From Candidatus Methanomethylophilaceae archaeon (lineage in GTDB: Archaea; Thermoplasmatota; Thermoplasmata; Methanomassiliicoccales; Methanomethylophilaceae), in the NCBI GenBank assembly GCA_017540825.1, contig JAFYAH010000001.1, positions 1 through 64,000 on the forward strand: a DNA stretch of 64,000 nt, in the 5' to 3' direction. Below, piece after piece: positions 556-29,140 of this stretch. Position 1 is the stretch's first letter. Every line of letters begins with the position of its first letter. The notes below the pieces were generated by a model, which did no database searches, had not been told where the DNA came from, and saw only the letters and a program-made list of their open reading frames with translations. The translations under genes were made by a program, and so were the position numbers.

Positions 556-2886
556 ATGTCCGGCCTAATGGTGAAGCGCGACGTCCCGTTCCCGCTGTAC
601 GACGTGGGCATCCTTTCCGCCACCGACGAGCAGCTGGAGCAGGTCTCTGCGGACATGTCCCTCGCCCTCTCGCTGGAGGAGATGAAGACGGTTCGCGACT
701 ATTTCAGGAAGGAGGGCAGGAACCCCACCGACGTGGAGCTCCAGTCCTTGGGGCAGGCATGGAGCGAGCACTGCTGCTACAAGAGCTCCAAGCCTATACT
801 CAAGGAGTTCGTCTTCGGCATAGACCGCGACGATGTGCTCTCCAGGGGCGACGCCGGCGTCATGGTCTTCGACGACGACTACGGGTATGCGCTACGCATA
901 GAGAGCCACAACCATCCGTCCGCCATCGAGCCCTACGGAGGGGCGGCGACCGGGATCGGAGGGATCCTGAGGGACGTGGTGTGCATGGGGGCGCAGCCGA
1001 TCGGCCTGGCCGACCCCCTATGCTTCGGCCCGATAGACCATAAAGGGGAGCTTCCGCCCGGGACGAAGCATCCCAGATACCTGGTCAGCGGCGTGGTCTC
1101 AGGGATCAGGGACTACGGCAACCGCGTCGGTATACCCACGATCACCGGCGGCTTCTTCTTCGACGAGAAGTACACCGGCAACTGCCTCGTGAACGTGGCA
1201 TGCCTGGGGATCGTCAAGCGCGCTGATCTCGCCAAGAACTATGCGGGCGGGCCCGGGGAGGTCATGATCCTCATCGGAGGCCGCACCGGGCGCGACGGGA
1301 TACACGGGGTGAACTTCGCCTCCGCGGATCTTACTGCGACCTCCGACGAGGACTCCAGGGGCGCGGTGCAGCTCGGGGACCCCATAACAAAAGAGCCCGT
1401 GATGCACGCATGCTTCGAGGTGAACGCCAAGCATCTCATCACAGGCATGAAGGACCTCGGAGGGGGCGGGCTGAGCTGCGTCGTCGGCGAGATGGCGCTG
1501 GACGCAGGATGCGGCGCGGACGTGGACCTGGAGAAGGTCCCCCTGAAGGAGTCCGGGCTGGCCCCGTGGGAGATATGGGTGTCAGAGTCGCAGGAGCGCA
1601 TGATGTGCACCTGCAAGCCGGAGAACGTCCAGGCCGTCCTGGAGATATTCGAGATGTGGGACGTTCTTGCCACGCCCATCGCCAAGACCACCGACCTCAA
1701 GCGCACCCGCCTGTTCTGGGACGGGGCGCCCATATTCGACATGGACCTGGAGTTCCTGACCGGAGGGCCGGTCTACAACAGGCCCTACGTCCTTCCCGAG
1801 GTCTCCACTAGAGAGAAGGAGAGGTTCCCGGAGCTGCCGTCCGACGACAAGGTCATCCTGTCGCTGCTCTCCGACTTCAACGTGGCGTCCAAGGAGTGGG
1901 CCATACGCCAGTACGACCACGAGGTCCGCGCCGGGACCGCCATCCACCCGATGGTGGGCGAGATGAACAGGACCGGGCCGGGCGACGCCTCCGTGCTGCT
2001 TCCGGTCCCCGGGAGGCTCAAAGGGCTCGCCGCCGCCATCGGCTGCAACCCATGGTTCACCGAGGCCGACCCGTACAACGGCGGAATGTCGTGCATAGAC
2101 GAGACCTGCAGGAACCTGGTGGCCGTCGGCGCAAGGCCAAACGCGTTCACCGACTGCCTGAACTTCGGCAACCCGGAGAAGCCGGAGAGGCTGGGGGAGT
2201 TCAGAGAGGCCGTCAGGGGAATAGGGGAGGCCGCCCGCGAGCTGGGGATACCCATACCGTCCGGGAACGTCAGCCTCTACAACGAGGCTCCCGGAGGGAA
2301 GCACATACTGCCTACCCCCATGATCCTCGGATGCGGCCTGGTCGACGACGTGAGGAAGGCCGTGACCGCCGACTTCAAGAAGGCCGGCAGCGTGCTGCTC
2401 CTCGTAGGGTCCACCAAGGACGAGATGGGCGCTTCCCTGCTGTTCCGCAGGTTCGGAGGCGAGCAGGGAGCCGTCCCCGCGGTGGACATCCCGTCTTTGA
2501 AGAGGAAGATGGACGGGCTCCTCAAGGCCATGGACGAGCGCCTGGTCCTGAGCTGCCATGACTGCTCGGACGGAGGGCTCGCCATAGCAGTGGCCGAGAT
2601 GTGCGTCTCCGGCGGGGTCGGCGCGGAGCTGGACCTGTCCGGGATAGACCTTCCCTGCCTGCAGAAGAAGCTGTACTCCGAGAGCAACGGCCGCTGGGTC
2701 GTGGAGGTCGACGGCAAGGACGTGACCAGGTTCTCGGAGATCATGGGCGGCGACGCGGTCCCGATAGGTATAACGAAAGGCGACAGCCTGAGGATAAAGG
2801 ACAACGGTACGGCAGTCCAGGTCGAGGACATGAGGAAGGCCTGGAGCTCGCCCATATGGGACGTCATGGGAGGTGCTGCGGAATGA
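556..2886 (+). CDS. purL: Phosphoribosylformylglycinamidine synthase subunit PurL
   Basis: The 776-residue catalytic subunit of FGAM synthase uses ATP and ammonia from PurQ to convert FGAR to FGAM. Family motifs include EHCCYKSSKP (about 71-80), SHNHPSA (117-123) followed by a glycine-rich GGAATGIGG segment, and a later DCSDGGLA motif, arranged as the two AIRS-like halves of small PurL. The length fits the small PurL type rather than the fused bacterial PurL of about 1300 residues. The ATG at 556 lies 4 nt after the purS stop; a second ATG at 568 is a possible start. The stop overlaps the purQ start (ATGA), so translation is probably coupled. Confidence 0.97.
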   Translation: MSGLMVKRDVPFPLYDVGILSATDEQLEQVSADMSLALSLEEMKTVRDYFRKEGRNPTDVELQSLGQAWSEHCCYKSSKPILKEFVFGIDRDDVLSRGDAGVMVFDDDYGYALRIESHNHPSAIEPYGGAATGIGGILRDVVCMGAQPIGLADPLCFGPIDHKGELPPGTKHPRYLVSGVVSGIRDYGNRVGIPTITGGFFFDEKYTGNCLVNVACLGIVKRADLAKNYAGGPGEVMILIGGRTGRDGIHGVNFASADLTATSDEDSRGAVQLGDPITKEPVMHACFEVNAKHLITGMKDLGGGGLSCVVGEMALDAGCGADVDLEKVPLKESGLAPWEIWVSESQERMMCTCKPENVQAVLEIFEMWDVLATPIAKTTDLKRTRLFWDGAPIFDMDLEFLTGGPVYNRPYVLPEVSTREKERFPELPSDDKVILSLLSDFNVASKEWAIRQYDHEVRAGTAIHPMVGEMNRTGPGDASVLLPVPGRLKGLAAAIGCNPWFTEADPYNGGMSCIDETCRNLVAVGARPNAFTDCLNFGNPEKPERLGEFREAVRGIGEAARELGIPIPSGNVSLYNEAPGGKHILPTPMILGCGLVDDVRKAVTADFKKAGSVLLLVGSTKDEMGASLLFRRFGGEQGAVPAVDIPSLKRKMDGLLKAMDERLVLSCHDCSDGGLAIAVAEMCVSGGVGAELDLSGIDLPCLQKKLYSESNGRWVVEVDGKDVTRFSEIMGGDAVPIGITKGDSLRIKDNGTAVQVEDMRKAWSSPIWDVMGGAAE

Positions 2887-3701
2887 AGCCGGAAGACGTG
2901 AAGGTCTGCGTGATAAGGATCGAGGGGACGAACTGCGAGGACGAGATGGCCGGAGCCTTCGAGGCGGTCGGCGCCCAGGCGGAGAAGGTCCACCTCAAGC
3001 AGCTGATAAAGCAGGCTCCCGCTGGCCTCCGGCGCGACCTGGAGGACTACGACGTCCTGGCGTTCCCGGGAGGGTTCTCCGCAGGCGACTACGTCCGCGC
3101 AGGGGCCATATTCGCCGCCAGGATAAAGGCGGGGATGGGCTCCGAGGTCAGGAGGTTCGTCGAGGACGGGAAGCCCGTGCTCGGGGTCTGCAACGGGTTC
3201 CAGATACTGGTCGAGCTCGGGCTCCTCCCCGCGTTCGAAGGGACGATGTCCGACGTGCCTGCGGCAGCCCTCTACACCAACGACTCCGGGAGGTTCGAGT
3301 GCAGGCCTACGGTACTAAGGAACGACAGCCGCGGGAAGTGCATCTTCGCTTCGTCCATACCCGAGAAGAAGCTGCTCACGATCCCTTCCGCACATGCCGA
3401 GGGGAAGCTCCTGAGCATGGACCCTGACTTCGTGCAGAAGCTGGAGGACAACGATCAGATAGTGTTCAGGTACGTCTGCCCCGACGGGTCTCCCGCAAGA
3501 TATCCGTGGAACCCCAACGGCTCCCAGTCGGACATAGCGGGGATATGCAACCCTGCAGGGAACGTCATGGGCATGATGCCCCATCCCGAGAGGGTCATGA
3601 CGCGCTTCACCCATCCGGACTGGACCAGGGGGTACATTTCGGAGGAGGGCGACGGCAGGGTCGTGTTCGAGTCCGTCATGAGGCATCTCGAGAAGAGATG
3701 A
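2883..3701 (+). CDS. purQ: Phosphoribosylformylglycinamidine synthase subunit PurQ
   Basis: This 272-residue class I glutamine amidotransferase supplies ammonia to PurL. The nucleophile elbow GVCNGFQIL places the catalytic Cys at residue 103, and the His/Glu of the triad lie in MMPHPERVM near the C-terminus. FPGGFSAGDYVRAG is the typical PurQ oxyanion-loop region. The start chosen at 2883 overlaps the purL stop as ATGA; the open frame extends upstream inside purL, but that part is antisense-like noise. The gene ends 8 bases before an 11-G tract and converges on the riboflavin kinase gene. Confidence 0.96.
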   Translation: MKPEDVKVCVIRIEGTNCEDEMAGAFEAVGAQAEKVHLKQLIKQAPAGLRRDLEDYDVLAFPGGFSAGDYVRAGAIFAARIKAGMGSEVRRFVEDGKPVLGVCNGFQILVELGLLPAFEGTMSDVPAAALYTNDSGRFECRPTVLRNDSRGKCIFASSIPEKKLLTIPSAHAEGKLLSMDPDFVQKLEDNDQIVFRYVCPDGSPARYPWNPNGSQSDIAGICNPAGNVMGMMPHPERVMTRFTHPDWTRGYISEEGDGRVVFESVMRHLEKR

Positions 3702-4399
3702 GAAACGAGGGGGGGGGGGCGCGTCCCTCCTCTATTTTGCCGTCGGAACGATATCCTCACGTCTACGCGGTCGCCGTCCTCGAGGCTGAGGGTGCGGCGG
3801 AGATGGAACTGGCAGATTATCTCTATGGTGTCGACGTAGTGGGACCTCTCCGGCACCACTATCGCGCAGTCGATGTTGCTTATCTTGGCCTTGTAGGCTA
3901 TCACGTTGCCGAAGCTCCTGCCGTCTTGGACGAAGCCCTCCACCAGGATCCCGGAGGTTCCTCTTACGACGTCCAGCTTGCTGACGTCCTCCGGGTCCAG
4001 GGCGATGTTCAGCGTCCCTTCGAACGGAGCGAAGCCGAGGAGGGATTCGAACTGCTTCATGTAGCCGCTCTGGCAGATGTAGTAGCTCCCCTCGCCCATC
4101 CCGGAGGTGACGCACCCGTGGACGGTGACGTGGTCGGACAGCTCGAATATGCGGCGGTACTCGTTATACTCCTTCTTGAGCTCCTCTACCCCTTTGGGGG
4201 TGATCTTTATGCGCTGCCTCCTCGCCCCCAGGTCCCTCACGATGTACTTCTCATCCAGAAGCTCCAGAATTCTTTTCGAGGCAGACTGCTGGCTCATCTC
4301 CAGGATGCTTCCAAGCTCGCGGGACGAGACTGCTACGTAATCGTCTACAGCTCCTAGGAGAGCTAGTTTTCTGAGCGCAAACGAGTACTTGTTGCCCAT
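3455..4399 (-). CDS. ribK: CTP-dependent riboflavin kinase with N-terminal winged helix
   Basis: The first ~90 residues form a MarR-like winged helix (ELGSILEMSQQSASKRILEL, then the wing RRQRIKITPKGVEEL). Residues ~95-222 match the DUF120 riboflavin kinase fold, which makes FMN using CTP; GYMKQFESLLGFAPFEGTLN and the closing LEDGDRVDVRIS are typical. The HTH suggests it may also regulate its own or flavin genes, as known for the archaeal RbkR family. The conserved domain ends near 3735, but the literal frame runs through the G11 tract and 247 bp into purQ antisense. With one G fewer the frame would stop at 3676, overlapping purQ by only 26 bp, which is more plausible. A TATA-like element 26 nt upstream suggests a leaderless message. 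Confidence 0.85.
   Translation of the reverse strand: MGNKYSFALRKLALLGAVDDYVAVSSRELGSILEMSQQSASKRILELLDEKYIVRDLGARRQRIKITPKGVEELKKEYNEYRRIFELSDHVTVHGCVTSGMGEGSYYICQSGYMKQFESLLGFAPFEGTLNIALDPEDVSKLDVVRGTSGILVEGFVQDGRSFGNVIAYKAKISNIDCAIVVPERSHYVDTIEIICQFHLRRTLSLEDGDRVDVRISFRRQNRGGTRPPPLVSHLFSRCLMTDSNTTLPSPSSEMYPLVQSGWVKRVMTLSGWGIMPMTFPAGLHIPAMSDWEPLGFHGYLAGDPSGQTYLNTI
3709..3719. repeat. Homopolymer of 11 G between purQ and ribK
   Basis: Eleven consecutive G residues sit between the 3' ends of the convergent purQ and ribK genes. The tract falls inside the C-terminal reading frame of ribK, where a one-base change in length moves the stop codon. It may be a slippage site or a sequencing-length error. 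Confidence 0.9.
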
Positions 4400-4420
4400 G
4401 ATGGTGAATGGAAGCGTCCT

Positions 4421-4428
4421 TAATATGA
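4421..4428 (-). promoter_or_regulatory. TATA-like box before ribK
   Basis: On the minus strand the element reads TCATATTA and is centred about 26 nt before the ribK ATG at 4399, so a leaderless transcript is likely. An operator for the HTH of RibK could overlap here, but no clear palindrome was seen. Confidence 0.35.
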
Positions 4429-4537
4429 ACTTGTCGATGTATTACACATTGGTTTTGTAATCGTGATTTTATACAGGATTATTGCCGAAAAAGGATACTT
4501 AACTCATCCAATGAACGTTCCGGACAGGCGTCCGGAT

Positions 4538-4569
4538 AACAAAAAAGAAAAAAAAGGTCCCGGAGGACC
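4538..4569 (-). terminator. Hairpin plus T-tract terminator
   Basis: Read on the minus strand, a perfect 5-bp stem GGTCC/GGACC with a 4-base loop is followed by about 15 bases that are almost all T. It lies 8 bases after the stop of the small membrane gene at 4577-4945 and fits a transcription terminator for that gene. Confidence 0.65.
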
Positions 4570-4576
4570 GATTGTT

Positions 4577-4945
4577 TCAGACAGCCTTCCTGCTGTCGCC
4601 GTACCTCACGACGGTGGGGCACGCGGCGAGGGCGACGTTGACGACGCCTATCGCCAGGAGGAAGATCTGCACCCACAGGAAGGTGGAACCATAGAACATC
4701 GACACGAGAGTGACTGCGACGCATACTCCGGCGATGACGGCGATGGACTTCCCTGCAATGGGGGCGGTCTTGGCGAACGCGCCTGCGGTAGCGAAGAACA
4801 TCGTCGCCACGAGCAGGTTGAAAGCTACGTTGTTGATGGCGTCGAGGCTGCCGTCCCAGGAGTACGCAAGCGCCGCCATGGCGACTATTCCTCCGAGCAG
4901 CCCGAGCCCCATGCCAACGGACATCTTTTTGGGGATTGCACTCAT
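4577..4945 (-). CDS. Small four-helix membrane protein
   Basis: This 122-residue protein has four hydrophobic segments (about 10-30, 40-60, 65-85 and 90-110) and a short charged C-terminus, so it is probably an integral membrane protein. No family was recognised. It lies 43 bp downstream of another membrane protein on the same strand (4989-5549), which suggests co-transcription, and it is followed by a good hairpin/T-tract terminator. Codon use is like the neighbouring genes. The function is unknown. Confidence 0.7.
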   Translation of the reverse strand: MSAIPKKMSVGMGLGLLGGIVAMAALAYSWDGSLDAINNVAFNLLVATMFFATAGAFAKTAPIAGKSIAVIAGVCVAVTLVSMFYGSTFLWVQIFLLAIGVVNVALAACPTVVRYGDSRKAV

Positions 4946-4988
4946 ATCTTACACCTTTGGATTTATCTCGATTCGGATATTAAACACA

Positions 4989-5549
4989 TCAGTCCAGGAT
5001 CAGCTTGAGGCTGTCGGCCGCGACCCATGCAATGGTGCCTGCGATCATGACCGCTTCTCCCATCTCGGGCGAGATTCCCAGGAAGGCGATCGCGGCGGCC
5101 GCGAGAACGCATGAGCAAACGGCTGCGTTGAGCATCCTGCCCTCTTTTCCGTCCGCGGAACCAGCCGCGATGATCGCGAACGCCAGGCACACCATCAGGA
5201 GGACCGAGAAAAGGAAGTGGTAGTTCTCGCCCGAGTGGACTATGCCTATTGCGAACAAGAGCGCTCCGGCGATCATCATGAGCATGCCGGAAGCGCATTC
5301 CGCGCCGCGGTAGGCGTAGGCCTTGCCGATGCCGTACACGAACATGAGGATTCCGACAAGGATGCATCCGTAGTTGAACATGTCCGCGGCAATGCTCACG
5401 CTGGAGATCCCGAGCTTGGACACGTAGTCGTTCCCAAAAGTCCAGGAAGGATCCGCGCAAGCGGCCACCACCCAGACGACGGAGAAGATGAAAGCTGCGA
5501 CAAGCCCTATGGCGCCGAAGCCTGCCGCGCTGCGATTTTCCTCTTTCAT
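4989..5549 (-). CDS. DUF998-like membrane protein
   Basis: This 186-residue protein has six hydrophobic segments. The N-terminal half has the pattern I associate with DUF998 proteins: a first membrane helix, then YVSKLGISSVSIAADMFNYG, and a conserved His after a later helix (IGIVHSGENYH). DUF998 members are uncharacterised integral membrane proteins common in archaea. The start at 5549 lies about 25 nt from an AT-rich element shared with the divergent GPN GTPase gene. The family assignment is by eye and moderate. Confidence 0.65.
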   Translation of the reverse strand: MKEENRSAAGFGAIGLVAAFIFSVVWVVAACADPSWTFGNDYVSKLGISSVSIAADMFNYGCILVGILMFVYGIGKAYAYRGAECASGMLMMIAGALLFAIGIVHSGENYHFLFSVLLMVCLAFAIIAAGSADGKEGRMLNAAVCSCVLAAAAIAFLGISPEMGEAVMIAGTIAWVAADSLKLILD

Positions 5550-5565
5550 GCGTACCGAACTTATC

Positions 5566-5579
5566 TTAATTATTATATT
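5566..5579. promoter_or_regulatory. Divergent promoter between DUF998-like gene and GPN GTPase
   Basis: An AT-only stretch (TTAATTATTATATT) lies 25 nt from the minus-strand start at 5549 and 52 nt before the plus-strand start at 5631. It could serve as a TATA box in both directions, giving a leaderless message on the minus strand and a leader of about 30 nt with an AAAGGAGG ribosome site on the plus strand. Confidence 0.45.
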
Positions 5580-5630
5580 GGTTTTGTTTTACCGTTCTCA
5601 TCCATCCATGCCAAAGGAGGCAATATCGTC

Positions 5631-6395
5631 ATGAAGAATGTGTTTTTCGTCGGCACCGCCGGGAGCGGCAAGAGCACCCTCGTCGGAGCGTACAAGCAGT
5701 GGCTGGACAGCAACGGCGTCGATTCGATAGCCGTCAATATGGATCCCGGCGCGGAGTCCCTTCCGTACGACCCGGACATCGACATTAGGGAATGGATAAG
5801 CCTGGACGAGGTCATGAGCGAGTACCAGCTCGGCCCCAACGGCGCGCAGATCGTCGCGGCGGACCTGATGGCGGTCAACATCGAGAAGATGACCAGCGTG
5901 TTCGCCGAGTACGACACGGACTACGTCCTCGTGGACACCCCCGGCCAGCTCGAGCTCTTCGCGTTCAGGGAGTCCTCCAACCTCACCGTCAGCGCGTTCG
6001 GAAAGGAGGACTCCATGCTGGTGTACCTGTCCGATCCGTCTCTGTGCAGGACCCCCAACGGCTTCATATCGGCGATGACCCTCGGGGCGCTGGTGCAGTT
6101 CAGGCTGCAGCTCCCGATGCTGAACCTTCTGTCGAAGAGCGACACCCTGTCCGACGACGACGAGCAGAGGATGCTGGACTGGTACTCCCTGCCGGACGTC
6201 CTCTACGGGGATCTCCTGGACGCGGATTCCATGCCCCAGACTGTCGTCGGCATGGAGCTGTTCAAGGCTATGGAGAATACGGGGGTGTTCGGAGAGATCC
6301 GCTCCGTCTCCGCACAGGACGAGATAGGCTTGGAGGAGATATACGCAGCGTCGCAGCTCGTGTTCTTCGGCGGCGAGGACACCGCGAGGGAGTGA
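5631..6395 (+). CDS. GPN-loop GTPase
   Basis: This 254-residue protein is an archaeal GPN-loop GTPase, related to Pab0955 and eukaryotic GPN1/XAB1, which in eukaryotes helps assemble RNA polymerase II. The P-loop GTAGSGKST is at 8-16, the name-giving Gly-Pro-Asn at 68-70, the G3 motif DTPGQ at 102-106, and a G4-like LSKSD after residue 165. The ATG at 5631 is preceded by AAAGGAGG at a suitable distance; the open frame upstream has no coding character. It converges on the PAN gene. Its client in archaea is not established. Confidence 0.93.
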   Translation: MKNVFFVGTAGSGKSTLVGAYKQWLDSNGVDSIAVNMDPGAESLPYDPDIDIREWISLDEVMSEYQLGPNGAQIVAADLMAVNIEKMTSVFAEYDTDYVLVDTPGQLELFAFRESSNLTVSAFGKEDSMLVYLSDPSLCRTPNGFISAMTLGALVQFRLQLPMLNLLSKSDTLSDDDEQRMLDWYSLPDVLYGDLLDADSMPQTVVGMELFKAMENTGVFGEIRSVSAQDEIGLEEIYAASQLVFFGGEDTARE

Positions 6396-6437
6396 GTAGG
6401 AAGGGGAGGGCCTCCCCCTCCTTCGAGCCTGAGCGGC

Positions 6438-7649
6438 TCAGACGAACATGTTAGCGGGAAGGTCGGGCATCTTCCCTTTCTTCGCGTCGAGGACCTTCTT
6501 CCTGGCGTTGTCGAAGTCCTCCTGGGTCACCGTGTCGCGGTCGTTCCTGATCGCGAGCATGCCCGCCTCGGTGCACATGTTCTTGATCTCGGCGCCCGAG
6601 AGGCCGTCGGTGGTCTCGGCCAAGGCCCTGGGGGATATGCCGTCCTCCACGTTCATGCGGGCGGTGTGGATCTTGAAGATCTGCTCCCTTCCGTCGACGT
6701 CCGGCAGGCCGACCTCGATTATGCGGTCGAACCTCCCGGGCCTGAGGAGGGCGTCGTCGAGGATGTCGGGCCTGTTCGTGGCCCCGATGATCTTTATGTT
6801 GCTCATAGGAGTGAACCCGTCCAGCTCTGACAGCAGCTGCATGAGGGTCCTCTGGACCTCCCTGTCGCCGGAGGTGGTGACGTCCAGCCTCTTCGCGCCC
6901 ACCGAGTCGAGCTCGTCGATGAATATGATGCTAGGGGCCTTCTCCTTGGCGAGCTCGAACAGCTCGCGGACCAGCCTGGCGCCTTCGCCTATGTACTTCT
7001 GCACCAGCTCTGAGCCCACCAGCCTGATGAACGTCGCCTGGGTGGCGTTGGCCACGGCCTTGGCCATGAGGGTCTTCCCGGTCCCGGGAGGCCCCACCAG
7101 GAGGACGCCTTTAGGAGGCTCTATCCCCACTTTCGCATACAGCTCGGGCCTGAGCAGAGGGTCTTCCACGGCCTCGCGGAGCTCCATCATCTGGGTCTTG
7201 AGCCCGCCTATGTCGTCGTAGGAGATGTTGGGCTTATCGACTATCTCCGCTCCGGAGACGACGGGATCGACCGATGACGGGAGGACGTCCATGATGGACA
7301 GGGTCTGCTTGTTCAGAGAGACCCTGGACCCGACGATCAGGTCCTTGTCCGAGACGTAGGAGGACACCGAAACGACGAAGTCCGGGCCCGTAGTGCTCTT
7401 CACCACTGCGCGGTGGTTGGGAAGCACGTCCCTGAGGGAGCCGATTATGAGCGGCGGGCTCTTCAGCCTCTCCAGCTCGTTCCTGAGCCTGGTTATATCC
7501 TTCTGAAGCCTGAACAGCTCGCTCTCCGAGTAACGCTTCTCAGTCTCCGCGTTCTGGAGATCCTCCATGAGCTTGACGTTCTTCTCCTCGAGGGACGCGA
7601 TCCTCTCTCTAAGTTCGGAAACGTCCTCGGTGACTCCCTCGTTAGTCAT
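6438..7649 (-). CDS. pan: Proteasome-activating nucleotidase PAN
   Basis: This 403-residue AAA ATPase unfolds proteins for the archaeal 20S proteasome. In order it shows an N-terminal coiled coil (about 8-62), an OB domain (65-125) and an AAA module with Walker A GPPGTGKT (186-193), Walker B IIFIDE (241-246) and the second region of homology with GATNRPDILDDALLRPGRFD. The family C-terminus is a hydrophobic-Tyr-X tail that docks into the proteasome; here it ends Met-Phe-Val, a Phe variant of that motif. The gene is monocistronic or divergently regulated with MBF1. Confidence 0.96.
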   Translation of the reverse strand: MTNEGVTEDVSELRERIASLEEKNVKLMEDLQNAETEKRYSESELFRLQKDITRLRNELERLKSPPLIIGSLRDVLPNHRAVVKSTTGPDFVVSVSSYVSDKDLIVGSRVSLNKQTLSIMDVLPSSVDPVVSGAEIVDKPNISYDDIGGLKTQMMELREAVEDPLLRPELYAKVGIEPPKGVLLVGPPGTGKTLMAKAVANATQATFIRLVGSELVQKYIGEGARLVRELFELAKEKAPSIIFIDELDSVGAKRLDVTTSGDREVQRTLMQLLSELDGFTPMSNIKIIGATNRPDILDDALLRPGRFDRIIEVGLPDVDGREQIFKIHTARMNVEDGISPRALAETTDGLSGAEIKNMCTEAGMLAIRNDRDTVTQEDFDNARKKVLDAKKGKMPDLPANMFV

Positions 7650-7677
7650 GTTTCCTCGGTCTCTGAAAAAGTGTACT

Positions 7678-7687
7678 GTTATATAAG
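7678..7687 (-). promoter_or_regulatory. TATA-like box before pan
   Basis: GTTATATAAG (CTTATATAAC on the minus strand) is centred about 33 nt before the pan ATG at 7649, which would leave a leader of under 10 nt. Confidence 0.5.
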
Positions 7688-7710
7688 CAGTACATAGAAT
7701 GGTCCGATAC

Positions 7711-7720
7711 GCTAATTAAT
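7711..7720 (+). promoter_or_regulatory. TATA-like box before MBF1 gene
   Basis: GCTAATTAAT is centred 27 nt before the preferred MBF1 ATG at 7743. This supports that start and a near-leaderless message rather than the earlier in-frame ATG at 7719, which overlaps the box. Confidence 0.4.
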
Positions 7721-7742
7721 GTGCTATTCTGTTAGAGAGGGT

Positions 7743-8234
7743 ATGATTTGCGAGATGTGCGGAAGAGACGTCCCCCAGACGAGGACGGTCATCGTGGAGG
7801 GCTCCAGGCTCAACGTGTGCCCCGCCTGCGCCAGGTTCGGGGAGGACTTCAAGACATCCTCCGCGGGAGGCGCGCCGGTGACTCAGTCCGTCATCGAAGA
7901 GAGGCTGGAGAAGCGCGAGAGGAGGATGAAGTCCAAGGACATATACGCCGGATCCACCAGCGTGGAGCTCGTCGACGACTACGGCGGAGTTATCAGGGCC
8001 GCTCGCGAGGCCAAAGGCATGGACCTGGAGAAGTTCGCGTCATCCATTCTGGAGAAGAAGGGGACGATCGCCAAGATCGAGTCCAACAGCCTCATTCCCG
8101 ACGACAAGATCATCAAGAAGATCGAGAAGGCCCTGGGCATAAAGCTGACCGAGACGGTCCAGTCCGGAGCAGCTGTCGGGCCTGGAGGGTCCGGAGACAG
8201 GATGACCCTCGCCAATTTCATCAAGAAGGCCTGA
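7743..8234 (+). CDS. mbf1: Multiprotein bridging factor 1 (archaeal MBF1)
   Basis: This 163-residue protein has the archaeal MBF1 layout: an N-terminal zinc ribbon with Cys at 3, 6, 26 and 29, a lysine-rich linker, and a Cro/C1-type helix-turn-helix at about 75-128 (IRAAREAKGMDLEKFASSIL, then IAKIESNSLIPDDK). In eukaryotes MBF1 bridges TBP and activators; archaeal MBF1 has been linked to the ribosome. An in-frame ATG 24 nt upstream is possible, but 7743 places the first CxxC at the family position. The gene ends 2 bp from the convergent DUF2240 gene. Confidence 0.93.
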   Translation: MICEMCGRDVPQTRTVIVEGSRLNVCPACARFGEDFKTSSAGGAPVTQSVIEERLEKRERRMKSKDIYAGSTSVELVDDYGGVIRAAREAKGMDLEKFASSILEKKGTIAKIESNSLIPDDKIIKKIEKALGIKLTETVQSGAAVGPGGSGDRMTLANFIKKA

Positions 8235-20972: not shown

Positions 20973-21496
20973 GGGTCGTGGCGGTCATGACGCAGGGCAT
21001 CCTCTCCGGCATCTCGGACGATGCTGTGAAAGCCGTGACATGTTTCAGCAACGCGGAATGGAACAGCAAATCTAGGTGCGCTCTCGTCAGGGTCTTGGAC
21101 AACACCGTGAACATCTATCCCAGCGGCAAGTTCGTGGTGATGGGCGCCAAAGACATGGAGGCCGCTGCAGATTCGGTGTCCGAGGTCGTGGGCATGTACG
21201 AGGCGGTGGGGATACCGGCGTCCGTGGAGTCTCACAGGATCATATGCACCAACATGATCTGGGACGGAGACATCACCATAAACCTCGAGCTGCTGTCGAG
21301 AGAGTTGGAGAACCTGGGGTCGTGGCGCAGCTTCTACGACCCGGAGCTCGGCCCCAAGAGCCTGTCCATCAGCGCGGAGGGCATTTCTGCCATCGTGAAC
21401 CACTCCGGCTCTGTGCTGATCAACTCGGACGAGCCGGTCGACTGGGACGAGGTGTCGAACATCTGCGAGTTCATAGCGAGATTCGAGGTCGCATGA
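20960..21496 (+). CDS. Divergent TATA-binding-protein-like protein
   Basis: This 178-residue protein has the length and two-repeat layout of archaeal TBP. Repeat 1 contains NTVNIYPSGKFVVMGAKDME followed by a helix (AAADSVSEVVGMYEAVGI), matching the TBP pattern of a strand, SGK, GAK and a helix ending in Gly. Repeat 2 contains RIICTNMIWDGDITINLELL, then YDPELGPKSLSI and AIVNHSGSVLINSDEPVD with a final helix, the equivalent positions of the second half. The EQFPG loop with the DNA-kinking Phe is not conserved, so DNA binding may be altered or lost. ATG 20960 overlaps the upstream gene. It could be a specialised TBP paralog or a TBP-fold regulator. Confidence 0.65.
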   Translation: MEGLRVVAVMTQGILSGISDDAVKAVTCFSNAEWNSKSRCALVRVLDNTVNIYPSGKFVVMGAKDMEAAADSVSEVVGMYEAVGIPASVESHRIICTNMIWDGDITINLELLSRELENLGSWRSFYDPELGPKSLSISAEGISAIVNHSGSVLINSDEPVDWDEVSNICEFIARFEVA

Positions 21497-22546: not shown

Positions 22547-22720
22547 TCAGGAATTGTTCCATCCGCCGTTGATCCATCCGTATCCGCCGTTGGACCATCC
22601 GCCGTCCACCCATGTGGAGAAGTTGCTCCAGCCTCCGTCGATCCAGGCGGTCGCTTCGTTCTCGAAAGACGTCGTCTCTTCGCATCCCTGGAGCTCAGCG
22701 AACATCTCTATGCTCTTCAC
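22547..22720 (-). CDS. RiPP precursor peptide with six Trp-X-Asp/Asn motifs
   Basis: This 57-residue peptide has a leader-like half (MKSIEMFAELQGCEETTSFE) and a C-terminal core made of a repeat of the form W-x-(D/N)-G-G-W-x-N. All six Trp (26, 31, 37, 42, 49, 54) are followed at +2 by Asp or Asn: WID, WSN, WVD, WSN, WIN, WNN. This is the aromatic-X-Asp/Asn pattern that radical-SAM/SPASM cyclophane enzymes crosslink in triceptides. The GTG start at 22720 is 8 nt after GGAGG; an in-frame GTG three codons upstream overlaps that ribosome site. The gene lies 30 bp downstream of the tandem radical-SAM gene on the same strand. The modification itself is inferred. Confidence 0.85.
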   Translation of the reverse strand: MKSIEMFAELQGCEETTSFENEATAWIDGGWSNFSTWVDGGWSNGGYGWINGGWNNS

Positions 22721-22750
22721 TGTTGTCACCTCCTTCTCTTTTATTCGCCT

Positions 22751-25057
22751 TCAGGCGTCGTCGCTATCGCGGAACGGCCTCAGCAGAGACGGCCCTCCGA
22801 TCTCGTATGCAGAAGGCCACACGCCCGCACAACGGGGTTTCGCCTTGCAGCCCTCGCACTCGGCATGATCTGTGCTGCAGCGGGGTATCGCAAGGTTCTC
22901 TCCCACATCATTGTTAGTGAACAGGTTCAGCCTCGAACTTTCAGAATCGGCGTGACGGCTCTGATACTTCCTGCCGGTGGCGCACAGGGGCATCTCGAAA
23001 AGGGAGAAGCGGCACCCTGCGCCGGCAAGATAGTCGCACGCCTCCTCCACGTGCGCCTGCGCCTCTTCGAAGGACACGAACAGCTCGTCCTCATGGGCCT
23101 TCGCATTGCCGCAATAGTCCATGCCGCAGATCAGTATCCCTGCCTTGCCGAGGTTCTCGTGAACCGTCCTGCAGATCTCCCTCAGCTCCTTGAAGTTCCT
23201 CTTTGTCACGAGGACCTTCACCTGGACGTCCACTCCTGCGTCCTCGAGGTTCGACAGCCCGCGCATCGTCTTGCCATGGCTTCCGCGAACCGTCGTCACT
23301 TCGTCATGGGACGCCGGGTCGGCGGAGTGTATAGCGGCGATCACGGATGCCGTGCTCCGGTCGACGGAACCCGCGAATCTTTCGGCGAACTCTTTGTCGG
23401 AGAACCTCAGAGAGTTGCTCAGGACGGTCACCGTGATCCCTTTCGATGTGAGGAGCCGCGCTATGTCCATGAAGTCCGGATTCCCTGTGGGCTCCCCGCC
23501 GGAAAGGACGACCCTGTCCCCTTGTCCGAGCCCGTTCCTTGACACATAGTCTGCGACATCGTCCAGACTTAGGTATGAGGGGGCGCCGGAGGACCCTTTG
23601 GGGGACGGGCAGGTGATGCAGCGGAGCTCGCAGGAGTCGCTTATGGCCAGATACGCCGATCTGCGATTCCTCATGTATTTGTACTTTAGGCAGGAGCTGT
23701 TCTGCGGGGACGTGACGAGATTCCTGTAGGCGTCTCCGCCTTCCACGATCAGCCTGACGTATTCGGGGTAGACCGCCTTGTTGATGGCGCATTCTACGGC
23801 GTCGTAGCCTTCGTAGCCGCAATGGAGCCGCCTGGAGCTGCATCCTCCTCTGCAGAACGGGCGCCAGGGGCATTCCTCGCATTCTTTGGTCTCCTTGTTT
23901 TCGAAATACCTGTTCCGCTTCGCGCTTCTGGCGATCTGCTCGTCCAGAGGGATTCCGTCGTATATCGACCCTATGCGCACCGATTCCACGTCGGTCATGT
24001 CGCACGGGTAGATGTCCCCCTTGCGGTCGAACCCGACGATCCTGTACCCTCCCTGGCATCCGCGCGACACGCAGCAGCTCTTCTGGCTGGCGGAGACCAG
24101 ATTGCAGATCTTCGCGTCTATGTTGGGGTCCACGAACACTCTGCCTTCCTTGTTCATCCTGACCAGGGCGTGGAACAGGTCGATGTTGAACTTCGCCGAC
24201 TGCTCAGGGGAAGGCGCGAGGCCACGCTCCCTCGCGAACGGGTTGTCGCGGACGATGTTGAACTTCAGGCTCTTCAGCCCCAGCACGTTGATGGCGTGGT
24301 CCAGCATCTCGTCCAGCTTCCCGATGCTGTGGCGAGTCACCACGCTTATGCCGGTGATTTCGTCGCCGTAGTACCTTTTCAGGTTGGATATCCCTTCTTT
24401 TATGGCGTCGTACGTCCCCCTGCCGTCGGCGAACGTCCTTTGGATGTCGTTTATCCCCTTCGGTCCGTCGACGCTCACGCCGACCCTTATCCCGTTCTCC
24501 CAGAGGGTTCTGGCGACCTCGTCCGTCACGAGGGTGGCGTTAGTCTCCACGGTGAACACGCACGAGACGGACGACTCGTCGAACATCTTTTTGGCCGCGA
24601 GGATCTTGTCCAGTTCCAGGAGCGGCTCACCTCCCCACGGCTGGACGCTTATGCCCCTGACGCCCTTGCGCTCGCAATAGTCTATTATGAACCTGCACAC
24701 GTCAGAGAGGGTGCCGTCGTCTATAGACTCGTGGACGCTGGTGTTGCGAAGGCAGTAGCAGCAGTCCATGTTGCACCTCTGCGTCATGTCTATCAGGAAG
24801 AACGTGACGTTCGGCTCGAGCCCGAACACCGGGAAGGGCTTGCCCTTTGCCTTTGCGAAGTAGCGCTGCGCCAGCTTGAAGTCGAGCTCGGGGCTGGTCT
24901 CGCGCCTCCTGAGGCTGTCGAGAAGCTCGTCGTCCACCATCAGGCTGGTCCCGTTGGCGCTGAGCATGAAATTCGAGCCGCCGGCGCTGCAGCATACATA
25001 CGCGCCCAAGAACTCGAACCCGTCCTTGGAGAAAGGGCCGATCCATTCGTAGCTCAT
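22751..25057 (-). CDS. Tandem radical-SAM (SPASM) peptide-modifying enzyme
   Basis: This 768-residue fusion carries two radical-SAM domains. The first has CNMDCCYC (Cys 95, 99, 102), a WGGEPLLEL glycine motif (141-149) and a SPASM-type auxiliary region (Cys near 328, 334, 352, 393, 396, 402, 406). The second has CELRCITC (Cys 476, 480, 483), an LSGGEPTGNPDF motif and a further Cys cluster near the C-terminus (CSTDHAECEGCKAKPRC). Such pairs modify ribosomal peptides, as in the His-Xaa-Ser (HxsB/HxsC) type, where the two are separate proteins. The 91-aa gene overlaps its start (ATGA) and the precursor follows its stop, so the substrate is almost certainly that peptide. It is cytoplasmic and oxygen-sensitive by family. 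Confidence 0.9.
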   Translation of the reverse strand: MSYEWIGPFSKDGFEFLGAYVCCSAGGSNFMLSANGTSLMVDDELLDSLRRRETSPELDFKLAQRYFAKAKGKPFPVFGLEPNVTFFLIDMTQRCNMDCCYCLRNTSVHESIDDGTLSDVCRFIIDYCERKGVRGISVQPWGGEPLLELDKILAAKKMFDESSVSCVFTVETNATLVTDEVARTLWENGIRVGVSVDGPKGINDIQRTFADGRGTYDAIKEGISNLKRYYGDEITGISVVTRHSIGKLDEMLDHAINVLGLKSLKFNIVRDNPFARERGLAPSPEQSAKFNIDLFHALVRMNKEGRVFVDPNIDAKICNLVSASQKSCCVSRGCQGGYRIVGFDRKGDIYPCDMTDVESVRIGSIYDGIPLDEQIARSAKRNRYFENKETKECEECPWRPFCRGGCSSRRLHCGYEGYDAVECAINKAVYPEYVRLIVEGGDAYRNLVTSPQNSSCLKYKYMRNRRSAYLAISDSCELRCITCPSPKGSSGAPSYLSLDDVADYVSRNGLGQGDRVVLSGGEPTGNPDFMDIARLLTSKGITVTVLSNSLRFSDKEFAERFAGSVDRSTASVIAAIHSADPASHDEVTTVRGSHGKTMRGLSNLEDAGVDVQVKVLVTKRNFKELREICRTVHENLGKAGILICGMDYCGNAKAHEDELFVSFEEAQAHVEEACDYLAGAGCRFSLFEMPLCATGRKYQSRHADSESSRLNLFTNNDVGENLAIPRCSTDHAECEGCKAKPRCAGVWPSAYEIGGPSLLRPFRDSDDA

Positions 25058-25329
25058 TCTATCATGCTCTCCCTGAAGAGTATTTTGACGAACCTTTCGG
25101 CGGCGTCCCTGTCGGCATCCAACATGCCTTTGAAGTCTTCGGCGCTGAACCCTTTGCCTTCCAGGTATCCGTCCGCCAGCTTCTCCATGCAGCCAGGCCT
25201 AGTCCTGAATTCTAAGGAGCGGCCGGTGATGGAATTGGATAGGAATGCCGAACAGCCGTCCCTGACCGTCAGAACTGCGAACGGAGTGAAGTAGACGGTG
25301 TTCAAGGATTTGCGGTCGAAGGCGATCAT
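25054..25329 (-). CDS. Small protein of the RiPP locus
   Basis: This 91-residue protein is the first gene of the locus and overlaps the tandem radical-SAM gene by 4 nt. The N-terminal half (KSLNTVYFTPFAVLTVRDGC, then AFLSNSITGRSLEF) is beta-rich and resembles the N-terminal peptide-binding segments of SPASM enzymes, while the C-terminal half is helical (LEGKGFSAEDFKGMLDADRD). It could be a peptide-recognition partner, analogous in size and position to HxsD of His-Xaa-Ser systems. It has no cysteine motif, and its sequence does not show the repeated aromatic motifs of a precursor. The family is not identified. Confidence 0.7.
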   Translation of the reverse strand: MIAFDRKSLNTVYFTPFAVLTVRDGCSAFLSNSITGRSLEFRTRPGCMEKLADGYLEGKGFSAEDFKGMLDADRDAAERFVKILFRESMIE

Positions 25330-25370: not shown

Positions 25371-25380
25371 GTATTTAAAT
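25371..25380 (-). promoter_or_regulatory. TATA box of the RiPP operon
   Basis: ATTTAAATAC on the minus strand lies 42-51 nt before the ATG at 25329, giving a predicted leader of about 20 nt. It is the only clear TATA box for the three-gene locus. The remainder of 25381-25621 shows no gene. Confidence 0.55.
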
Positions 25381-26309: not shown

Positions 26310-27626
26310 TCACGGAAGTCCTCCTCCGCAGTTGGAACAGAATTTCGACGTCGAGGGGTTAGGCGTTCCGCACTTGGGGCAGGGCACGGTCGCGGGCCCG
26401 GCAGACATGGGCGACCCGCATCCCGAGCAGAACTTGGCCCCGGACGGGTTGGCGGCCCCGCACTTGGGGCAGGGCACGGTCACTGGCCCGGCAGACATGG
26501 GCGACCCGCATCCCGAGCAGAACTTGGCCCCGGACGGGTTGGCGGCCCCGCACTTGGGGCAGACGGACGCGCTGGGGGCAGGAGGCATCATGGAGGCTCC
26601 GCAGCTCCCGCAGAACCTGGATGCGGCCGAGTTGGCGACTCCACAGCTGGGGCAGAGAACGGTGGCTCCTGTGACGCCTCCCATGGCCCCTGTCGTGATC
26701 CCCTGCATGGCGCCTCCCATGCCGAGCCCCACTCCCAGCCCTATGCCGGCTCCCATGAGGCCTCCCAGGCTGCCTTCGTTCGCAGACGCCGTGTTTATGG
26801 CGTCCAGGCTCCTCTCCTGCTTGTGCCGCTCCCAATTGACCTGGGAGAACTGGTTGAGGCCGGCGACCTCTCCACGGGCCTGCATCGCTTTCTTCCTTTC
26901 CGGAGTGTCCAGGATCTCCATGGGGTTGACGTTGAACCTGACAAGGCGGATCCCGTAGGAATCCAGCATGGGTTCGATGGTTTCCTGCACCTTCTGGGCG
27001 ATGTCGGTGATCTTCGTGGAGACCAGCTCCAAGAGATCGAGCCCTGTGGCTATGGACTCGCTAGCGAGTATCGTCGACAGGTTCCTGGTGACCGCCTCGT
27101 TCACAGGGGAGCGGATCTTGGCGTTGACGTCCTTCGCTGTCAGGGAGCCTGCGTTCATGCCGACCATCTTGACGAAGAACTTCTTCGAGTCGACAATCTG
27201 GATGGTGTATGCCCCGTTGGCTGTTATCATCGTGGGGATGTTCTGGAAGTTCACGTCCTTGACGGATATCGGCGAGGGCGTCCCCCATTTGACCTCCATC
27301 TGATCCGCCTTGTTGACGTAGTATATCTGACAGTTGTAGATGCTGACGCCATCGGTCAAGGAGTTCCTTATCCTGCTCAGGAACGGGTAGTTCCCGGTGG
27401 ACAGGTCGTAGGAGCCGGAGGAGAGCACTTCTTCGACCACTCCGTTCTTGTAGAACAGCGCATCCATGCTCTCCGCGACGATGACCTTCGAATGCGAGTT
27501 GAAGTCCTCGTAAGGGACCTTCCATATCACGAACTCGTTGCTGCCCTCGTATTTTATGACGCTCATGAACGGCTTCTTGCCGTTAGGGTAGTCCACTTCG
27601 TTCGGATTCTTCTTGAATATGGCCAT
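26310..27626 (-). CDS. SPFH-domain protein with four C-terminal zinc ribbons
   Basis: This 438-residue protein carries an SPFH/band-7-like domain (about 25-265: VIKYEGSNEFVIWKVPYEDF, VTRNLSTILASE, YGIRLVRFNVNPMEI), then a Gly/Met-rich linker and four zinc ribbons with the pattern CPxCG...KFCSGCG. It resembles the virion-core/YdjI-type SPFH proteins with zinc ribbons that in Bacillus recruit PspA-like proteins to the membrane. Ribbons 2 and 3 are encoded by a 90-bp tandem repeat. The ATG at 27626 follows GAGGGGCGGGA. It lies in an operon with zinc-ribbon, TPR and membrane genes, which suggests a membrane-stress or membrane-microdomain complex. Confidence 0.85.
   Translation of the reverse strand: MAIFKKNPNEVDYPNGKKPFMSVIKYEGSNEFVIWKVPYEDFNSHSKVIVAESMDALFYKNGVVEEVLSSGSYDLSTGNYPFLSRIRNSLTDGVSIYNCQIYYVNKADQMEVKWGTPSPISVKDVNFQNIPTMITANGAYTIQIVDSKKFFVKMVGMNAGSLTAKDVNAKIRSPVNEAVTRNLSTILASESIATGLDLLELVSTKITDIAQKVQETIEPMLDSYGIRLVRFNVNPMEILDTPERKKAMQARGEVAGLNQFSQVNWERHKQERSLDAINTASANEGSLGGLMGAGIGLGVGLGMGGAMQGITTGAMGGVTGATVLCPSCGVANSAASRFCGSCGASMMPPAPSASVCPKCGAANPSGAKFCSGCGSPMSAGPVTVPCPKCGAANPSGAKFCSGCGSPMSAGPATVPCPKCGTPNPSTSKFCSNCGGGLP
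26371..26550 (-). repeat. Two 90-bp tandem repeats encoding zinc ribbons
   Basis: Bases 26371-26460 and 26461-26550 are identical except at two positions (88 of 90), and a partial third copy starts at 26551. Each unit encodes one 30-residue zinc ribbon of the SPFH protein. Such near-identity points to recent duplication or gene conversion and to possible copy-number variation. Confidence 0.9.
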
Positions 27627-27637
27627 TGTCCCGCCCC

Positions 27638-29140
27638 TCACAGATTCATGGATGGCACGAGGTCTGGGTTACCGAGCGAGCGCGGAGGGACGCCTCCCAT
27701 GTCTATGGTTGGGACGAAATCGTATCCCTGCTTGTTGCAGGGTATGTATATGACTTCTCTGGCCTCGCATTTTGCCATGCGAAGCTTGTCGGCGTTGCTC
27801 TTGCATCCTTTAAGATACTCGTTGCAAAGCTCTTCGGCTACGTGTTTGGTGCAGAGGGGGACCACCAGTACGCCTGTCAGCCCTCCAGCGGTCGCGGAGC
27901 TGCATATTTCGCTGATCCTGCTTCCAGCAGAGAGGCTGTCCACTCCCTTGAACTTCGTGCTCAGGGTGGCCTTGGGGGCTGCACCGAAGATGTCGGTGAC
28001 GAAAGACAGCGGGTACTCCATGCTGGAGGTCATGAAGCAGGCCGACACCAGGACGGTCTCCGTCACCTCCACGGCTTTTTTCTTGAACAGGGATCCCCCC
28101 TGGAAGGTGTATTTCACATCCACCGCCCACATCGGGACCATGTAATCCCCTTTCCCGGAAGCGACCTTCACCAGGCGTTCGCCGTTCAGGCGGGTTTTAA
28201 CCAGCTTGCTGAATTCCTCTAGGATCTCCTTCCGGTCGGTGTTTGCGATGGATTCTCTGTCCAGCTCGCGCATAAGCTTCCCGAACAGCTGAAGGGCGAG
28301 AGCCTCCTCCTCGTCGTCGAGGCTGTCCCCCAGCGAGTCGCATACCGTTATGCAGGAGGAGCAGGTGCCGATCTCCTGGTTGATGGCGGTGACCATTGCC
28401 GACGAGTCTATGTCGTTCTTCGCCATCGCCCTCGCGTCTTCGAGCCTCTTGCTAGCGCTTTTGAGTTTTTCTGCTGCGGGTTTGAAGTTCCCGGATATCA
28501 TGTCTTCCAATCCTATGGATGCTTCGTGCAGGGCGTTCAGACGAGCCTTCAGAGGCTTTTTGTCATCGCCCAGCGCTTCAGCAGCCTTGGAGTAGTTTGT
28601 GGGCAGGAAGGAGTACCTGTTGTTGACAGACTCACGGTCCGAGAGGAGGTCTAGGCAGGTCAGCACATAGGCGTATGCTGTAGACGTGCCTTTAGACTTC
28701 TTTATCAGGTCTTTAGCGGAATCCGCCACTGCCAGCTCTTCGTAAAGCTCGAGCTCCGACTCGAAACTGTGGAGCTGGTTGGAATTGTGCTTCACCTTGG
28801 CCTGCGTTTTCAACGTGTATGGCGCTATGAGAAGCTGGTTGGTGCATGCCGATGTCAGTCCGAAGGTGTAGTCCCTGAGGGCCGACTCCACGTCCGGCCT
28901 GATGTCCGTCTCGAATATGTGCTTCCTGGAGACGGTGTCAACCACTCCGCCAGGGGGGATGAGCTCGTTCCTGCGCGCCGCCTTGCGGTCTTCCTGCTCC
29001 TGATAGGCTTCCTTGAAGAGGTTCACCGCTCTCAGCTTTCCGCAGCATTCGCAAATGTACGTCGACTCTTTGGGGTCGATGTTGTTTATAGCCCCGCATC
29101 CCGGGCACTTTCCTGGAGTGAGGCTGTCAAGCGCGGACAT
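27638..29140 (-). CDS. Zinc-ribbon protein of the SPFH operon
   Basis: This 500-residue soluble protein has an N-terminal zinc ribbon (CPGCGAINNIDPKESTYICE, then CCG), a long helical middle region (about 70-300) and a C-terminal alpha/beta domain (AVDVKYTFQGGSLFKKKAVE; VVPLCTKHVAEELCNEYLKG). No family was recognised with confidence, but its layout and position recall the zinc-ribbon partner (YdjG-like) of SPFH systems. It starts 1 bp after the TPR gene and ends 11 bp before the SPFH gene, so the three are surely co-transcribed. Confidence 0.7.
   Translation of the reverse strand: MSALDSLTPGKCPGCGAINNIDPKESTYICECCGKLRAVNLFKEAYQEQEDRKAARRNELIPPGGVVDTVSRKHIFETDIRPDVESALRDYTFGLTSACTNQLLIAPYTLKTQAKVKHNSNQLHSFESELELYEELAVADSAKDLIKKSKGTSTAYAYVLTCLDLLSDRESVNNRYSFLPTNYSKAAEALGDDKKPLKARLNALHEASIGLEDMISGNFKPAAEKLKSASKRLEDARAMAKNDIDSSAMVTAINQEIGTCSSCITVCDSLGDSLDDEEEALALQLFGKLMRELDRESIANTDRKEILEEFSKLVKTRLNGERLVKVASGKGDYMVPMWAVDVKYTFQGGSLFKKKAVEVTETVLVSACFMTSSMEYPLSFVTDIFGAAPKATLSTKFKGVDSLSAGSRISEICSSATAGGLTGVLVVPLCTKHVAEELCNEYLKGCKSNADKLRMAKCEAREVIYIPCNKQGYDFVPTIDMGGVPPRSLGNPDLVPSMNL

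Follow-up and report, generated by a model that had tools for sequence, protein, structure and literature searches.

We observed that a three-gene cassette on the minus strand of the window (the whole 64,000-nucleotide stretch analysed) encodes a small protein, a twin radical-SAM (rSAM) enzyme and a 57-aa peptide. Judged by its sequence, the cassette is a divergent His-Xaa-Ser-like (Hxs-like) twin-rSAM RiPP system with Trp in place of His. We read it in this way because HxsC was the nearest profile to the C part of the enzyme at each of the three loci found, because the B protein of one relative (L073) was closest to HxsB, and because the gene order in the window is D-B-C-A (A being the precursor), as in bacterial hxs operons. 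That the three genes form a RiPP cassette is very likely. For the whole, the best explanation, which we hold with moderate confidence, is a divergent Hxs-like RiPP operon in a methanogen that makes three-residue cyclophanes on Trp.

The window cassette and its precursor

The features of the locus are as follows.
25372-25379, minus strand: TTTAAATA, putative archaeal TATA box about 45 nt upstream of gene D, as inferred from the sequence
25054-25329, minus strand: gene D, 91-aa protein (ORF list)
22751-25057, minus strand: twin rSAM enzyme, a B-C fusion of 768 aa (ORF and profiles)
23708-25057, minus strand: N-half (B domain, residues 1-450), rSAM and seven-Cys SPASM, with an N-terminal domain of about 85 aa
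22754-23707, minus strand: C-half (residues 451-768), HxsC-like rSAM with a C-terminal CxxCx5C; best profile HxsC
22726-22733, minus strand: Shine-Dalgarno sequence GGAGGTGA of the peptide gene (sequence)
22547-22720, minus strand: precursor peptide gene, 57 aa, GTG start (ORF, Shine-Dalgarno)
22622-22645, minus strand: motif pair WIDGGWSN (DNA pattern scan)
22589-22612, minus strand: motif pair WVDGGWSN (DNA pattern scan)
22553-22576, minus strand: motif pair WINGGWNN (DNA pattern scan)

The sequence-only reading of this DNA had described a candidate archaeal triceptide RiPP locus of three ORFs. The ORF coordinates confirmed their positions, and the cassette is of the RiPP type. McrA is encoded in the genome of the host (2.37 Mb on 73 contigs), which is therefore a methanogen. 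Gene D overlaps the 768-aa rSAM ORF by 4 nt (ATGA), and the peptide gene follows the rSAM stop codon after a gap of 30 nt, both as that reading had it. The longest reading of the peptide ORF opens at GTG 22729 (60 aa); the 57-aa reading was preferred, since a strong Shine-Dalgarno sequence (AAGGAGGTGA) ends 5 nt upstream of GTG 22720. The claim that no protease or exporter lies beside the cassette also held, as neither family was found among the ten flanking genes. A scan for sigma-70 promoters and terminators was uninformative, which is no surprise in an archaeon.

Elsewhere in the window, positions 26310-27641 (minus strand) encode an SPFH/Band-7 protein with four zinc ribbons in a row, adjoining a small membrane-like protein, and positions 20984-21493 (plus strand) encode a 170-aa protein with one partial TATA-binding-protein domain (Pfam, E 8e-6).

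When we examined the precursor, all six Trp residues were seen to stand in W-x-D/N (WID, WSN, WVD, WSN, WIN and WNN), as had been claimed. This was reached in 0 of 200,000 residue shuffles of the whole 57-aa peptide, and likewise for the core alone. At the DNA level, the W-x-D/N-G-G-W-x-D/N pattern had three matches in the window genome, all within the precursor gene, and a single match among the order's remaining 146 genomes. The latter, in genome G026, sits in an unrelated ORF and was set aside as a chance match. The precursor has one Cys, which lies outside the Trp core. No family match above cut-off was obtained for it with the Pfam and NCBIfam profiles; the profile of the Grr/Osc precursor (TIGR04260) touched it weakly (E 0.008).

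Relatives in the order and in a rumen metagenome

Relatives were sought in the genus (31 genomes), the family (102), the order (147), samples of the class and phylum, and IMG/VR. The sequence-only reading had proposed a search of related genomes for the trio of precursor, 91-aa protein and tandem rSAM enzyme, and unfused counterparts were indeed found at G028 and L073.

The genus search gave one further locus, on contig 31 of genome G028, where the two halves of the enzyme are separate adjacent genes, with 34% and 26% identity in this search. A 102-aa precursor is followed there by a C-type rSAM gene with a D-like tail and by a B-type rSAM-SPASM gene; the last ~75 residues of the C protein resemble the 91-aa protein of the window, so that it is a C-D fusion. 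Every Trp of the G028 precursor (10 of 10) stands in W-x-D/N (WTD, WSN, WKD, WSN, WKD, WSN, WKD, WSN, WKN and WSN), which was matched in 0 of 200,000 shuffles. The repeats are near-copies at the DNA level, however, so the ten motifs cannot be counted as independent of one another. The genes of L015 in the same genome (2092-7346, plus strand) adjoin and converge with the RiPP cassette. By eye, they look like genes for a phosphopantetheinyl transferase, an AMP-ligase, a small acyl-carrier protein, an HD protein and a GNAT acetyltransferase, which is unusual company in a methanogen.

Scanning IMG/VR with the B alignment also gave one further locus, L073 (35%, E 7e-86), from a sheep-rumen metagenome (3300021431; PMC6118326). 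Here a 54-aa precursor (MKELEIYSEKLGAMVKVSEEVSENDNQVIMEDSSSTMVGWSHGGWNNSGGGANW) with a Shine-Dalgarno sequence precedes the C, D and B genes. The peptide has no Cys, and its Trp residues read WSH, WNN and W-stop; D/N stands at +2 in one of the three, and any +2 residue in two of the three. D/N at +2 is therefore not an absolute rule. The earlier expectation, that relatives would keep W and D/N with a variable X, was borne out in G028 (X being T, S or K) and weakened by L073. The leader of the L073 peptide (MKELEIYSEKLG) resembles that of the window (MKSIEMFAELQG), and an equally good resemblance arose in 8 of 2000 shuffles. Since G028 and L073 carry separate genes, we take the fusion to be a local event and not a defining feature. 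The pairing of an archaeal and a rumen contig suggests horizontal spread of the cassette.

We also noted an in-frame TGA in the L073 C gene (4571-4573) at a conserved position, beyond which the homologous frame continues (GTYFTAYDVCG). Recoding was considered and rejected, as the neighbouring genes end in TGA; the more likely cause is a mutation or an error in the sequencing. A second peptide on this contig (7920-8153) ends in GWAHAGWINHGSGGDSW and is built like the first (GWSHGGWNNSGGGANW); its neighbours are several short rSAM genes and an IPP-isomerase-like gene.

The complete system was present in 2 of the 147 genomes of the order, namely the window genome and G028, and in none of the class and phylum samples. 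A whole-enzyme scan of GTDB contigs returned three loci, all of them unrelated rSAM, and the class and phylum searches returned other or generic rSAM genes only, with the exception of L050. This locus (G236, 4372-7777) is an archaeal Hxs-like B-C-C' set, in which a SPASM rSAM gene is followed by two overlapping HxsC-like genes (one HxsC4-like, one HxsC-like), with no recognisable repeat precursor beside the set. An orphan rSAM gene (L026 in G023, 1994-3256) was evaluated as a possible C-half and rejected, as it falls outside the C/HxsC group in the tree. Its C-terminal domain is somewhat like gene D, and no Trp-repeat peptide adjoins it.

Taking the two archaeal precursors (window and G028) together, the +2 residue is D/N for 16 of 16 Trp residues, and the +3 residue varies (G, F, S or Q). 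Neighbouring Trp residues lie at irregular distances (5-8), a pattern that fits rings within single motifs better than links from Trp to Trp. The motifs alternate in both peptides: in the odd-numbered ones X is never Ser and D mostly stands at +2, whereas the even-numbered ones read W-S-N apart from one W-N-N. In both peptides, N takes the +2 position of the final odd-numbered motif. This alternation, which is partly tandem duplication (plain in the G028 DNA), is compatible with the idea that each rSAM domain would act on one motif class, W-(non-S)-D or W-S-N.

The twin rSAM enzyme and gene D

The 768-aa protein was found to contain two rSAM stretches (Pfam PF04055), as first described, and both halves scored as rSAM (61 and 60 bits). 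The N-half carries CNMDCCYC and the full seven-Cys SPASM set, and the C-half carries CELRCITC and the C-terminal CxxCx5C. In the alignment, the window N-half is 35% identical to G028 B and 33% to L073 B, and the rSAM and SPASM cysteines are invariant across these B sequences (alignment, n=3). Seven Cys are common to the C proteins of the window, G028 and L073 and to three bacterial HxsC proteins, and the invariant columns of this alignment include the CxxxCxxC, LC and CxxCx5C cysteines.

The Hxs comparison, which the sequence-only reading had raised, proved to be the most informative lead, since each of the three C proteins matched HxsC best. For the window enzyme, HxsC (TIGR03977) was the best profile at 154 bits (cut-off 267.9), and the next family assigned to its C-half was AhbD (111 bits). 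The C protein of G028 scored 105 bits (next best 50) and that of L073 117 bits (next best 66). In the tree, the three C proteins grouped together (support 88/87), and the group lay nearer HxsC than most outgroups, with weak support for the joint node (51/72).

The B proteins gave a more varied picture. L073 B matched HxsB best, at 145 bits against a cut-off of 370 and over positions 9-460 of the 466 in the profile, and G028 B matched DynA best. For the window N-half, DynA, PapB (141 bits) and AnSME ranked above HxsB, and through this half DynA was the second-best profile of the enzyme overall (147 bits, cut-off 450). The solved structures nearest to the N-half are CteB, a thioether maturase, and anSME. 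No enzyme score of the window, G028 or L073 cassettes reached any curated cut-off, and the cassette was therefore not filed as Hxs or Grr/Osc.

Gene D had no match in Pfam, NCBIfam or PHROG. It weakly resembles the domain at the C-terminus of G028 C (BLASTP E 0.003) and an ~88-aa L073 protein (alignment A4). At each of the three loci, the end of D, or of its domain, overlaps the beginning of B by 4 nt. When alignment A4 was compared by hhalign with three bacterial HxsD-position proteins, the probability was 0.4%, and D was rejected as an HxsD homologue at this sensitivity. AF2 models of the 91-aa and 768-aa proteins, made without an alignment, reached a pLDDT of 49 and 39, too poor for a fold search.

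Proposed product and comparison with known systems

A RiPP layout (a small precursor with leader and repeat core, beside genes for modifying enzymes) is present in all three loci. In the mechanism that we propose, the 57-aa precursor would probably be bound through its leader (MKSIEMFAELQG...), and the 91-aa D protein, from its position and size, would be the likeliest recognition or adaptor part. The fused enzyme is expected to generate SAM-derived 5'-deoxyadenosyl radicals at two separate [4Fe-4S] sites. The Trp ring would then be crosslinked to the C-beta of the Asp/Asn at +2, so that one precursor could carry as many as six three-residue cyclophanes, each formed with a loss of 2 Da. Of the two halves, the SPASM half is more likely to catalyse the crosslinking, and the HxsC-like half may act on a second motif class (W-S-N versus W-x-D) or carry out a second modification. 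Release of the product would presumably depend on unlinked proteases or exporters.

Several related links have been described. OscB joins Trp C7 to the C-beta of Asn/Asp at i+2, XncB joins Trp C6 to the C-beta of Arg/Asn, MscB forms a related link on Phe-x-Ser, and in dynobactin Trp C6 is joined to the C-beta of Asn at i+3 (PMC11002830). We consider Trp cyclophanes a reasonably likely product of the cassette. Three-residue rings are the best guess because W-x-D/N is the motif that OscB crosslinks, and because X and the Trp spacing are variable with no constant partner elsewhere in the archaeal cores. The earlier assignment to the triceptide type is supported by the motif of the two archaeal precursors and not by the enzymes, none of which scored above the cut-off of any cyclophane-forming family tested. 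The scores were far below: the window enzyme gave 91 bits with AmcB (cut-off 425), and L073 B gave 86 bits with YhhB (cut-off 445) and 74 with FxsB (cut-off 370).

We weighed these conclusions against other explanations. It is unlikely, though not negligibly so, that the common product of this RiPP is something other than an i to i+2 cyclophane, such as an Hxs-type modification, a longer-range (+3) ring or a Trp-Trp link. The DynA matches of G028 B (best) and of the window enzyme (second overall) would fit a dynobactin-like ring at i+3, the WSH, WNN and W-stop of L073 loosen the +2 rule, and the motifs are paired, with alternating classes, in both archaeal precursors; however, it is the +2 and not the +3 position that is constant in these precursors, and the irregular Trp spacing speaks against a Trp-Trp link. 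We find it possible, if somewhat doubtful, that the peptide is modified by just one of the rSAM halves, with a structural role or another step left to its partner, and that the fusion merely fixes the stoichiometry. This can coexist with a cyclophane product, and it would agree with the known triceptide systems, in which a single SPASM rSAM suffices (PMC11002830), and with the D-B overlap and the G028 C-D fusion, which point to one complex. However, the CxxxCxxC and C-terminal cysteines of both halves are kept in all three loci and in bacterial HxsC, and B and C travel together.

The remaining explanations are much weaker. That the small ORF is an ordinary small protein or a chance frame would be in line with the lack of a family match above cut-off, but is very improbable given the strong Shine-Dalgarno sequence, the operon position, the W-x-D/N pattern, the leader similarity to L073 and the same arrangement in all three loci. 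Maturation as a sacti- or ranthipeptide, with Cys thioethers, is suggested by the PapB score and the CteB structure. It is scarcely credible and largely refuted, as the single Cys of the window precursor lies outside the Trp core; thioethers are excluded as the common product because the L073 precursor has no Cys.

Together, these observations lead us to conclude that the cassette is a real, small and sparsely scattered RiPP system, a divergent twin-rSAM variant related to Hxs that probably forms Trp cyclophanes. Archaeal RiPPs made by SPASM-rSAM enzymes are little described in the literature searched. Besides being compact, with a single enzyme, a small protein and a 57-aa peptide, the cassette offers well-defined candidate target triplets. 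It may plausibly play a part in interactions among gut microbes, since it occurs in such methanogens and on a sheep-rumen contig.

Among known systems, GrrM/OscB (precursor TIGR04260, enzyme TIGR04261) is alike in its W-x-N/D within a Gly-rich repeat and in its SPASM rSAM, and differs in that the window enzyme scored 94 bits against a cut-off of 310 and that the host is an archaeon. To our knowledge, a second rSAM and a D gene are not part of the GrrM/OscB system. The dynobactin and darobactin maturases (DynA, DarE) are alike in the G028 B match and in the Trp-Asn C-beta link of dynobactin; unlike the window enzyme, which stays far from the DynA cut-off, they are single rSAM enzymes and the ring is at i+3. 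Sacti- and ranthipeptides differ in having the Cys-rich core that is lacking here.

The sequence-only reading had presented the fused architecture as one not known from a described archaeal system; the fusion proved not to be a defining feature. Besides the unfused G028 and L073 loci, a methanogen of the same archaeal family encodes a 775-aa tandem rSAM fusion of the TIGR04083 family (L027; G075 contig 90, 1633-3960, minus strand), so a fused rSAM pair is not unique as such. Its N-half is TIGR04083 (308 bits, above cut-off), and its C-half is SPASM-like and not HxsC-like. No W-x-D/N peptide or obvious precursor was seen on that 4.5-kb contig.

The closest likeness is to Hxs (TIGR03977, TIGR03978). 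Both systems have paired B (SPASM-type) and C rSAM proteins, a small gene of ~90 aa and a repeat peptide, with HxsC as the top profile of C in each locus here. The window shares the D-B-C-A order and short overlaps with the annotated hxs operons of the S. meliloti and Aminobacter plasmids, whereas G028 and L073 run A-C-D-B. The HxsA repeats (HRS, HSS, HAS) are also aromatic-x-residue triplets, and they partly alternate (HRS, HSS) in two of the three peptides examined. As side observations, the hxs operon adjoins CBASS genes on the Aminobacter plasmid (L078, 1-5333) and a VWA, PP2C phosphatase and protein kinase trio on the S. meliloti plasmid (L040, 5264-8270). In contrast to bacterial Hxs, the window and G028 cores have W-x-D/N and not H-x-S (Trp for His, D/N for Ser), B and C are fused in the window, B keeps all seven SPASM Cys (the three aligned bacterial HxsB proteins miss part), D is not detectably HxsD, the enzyme scores stay below the curated cut-offs, and the window precursor has 57 aa against ~190-210 aa for HxsA.

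We found no description of the product of the widespread bacterial Hxs system in the literature searched. A tentative and rather unlikely extension is that the archaeal cassette and Hxs are two branches of one kind, which would share an i to i+2 aryl-C-beta crosslink and two cooperating rSAM sites acting on alternating triplets (W-x-D and W-S-N; HRS and HSS). A solved product of the cassette would put a concrete prediction for Hxs chemistry to the test and explain the use of two rSAM active sites on one repeat peptide. If the joint reading is true, no triceptide system would have come from an archaeon before that of the window, and the nature of the Hxs product would follow from it.
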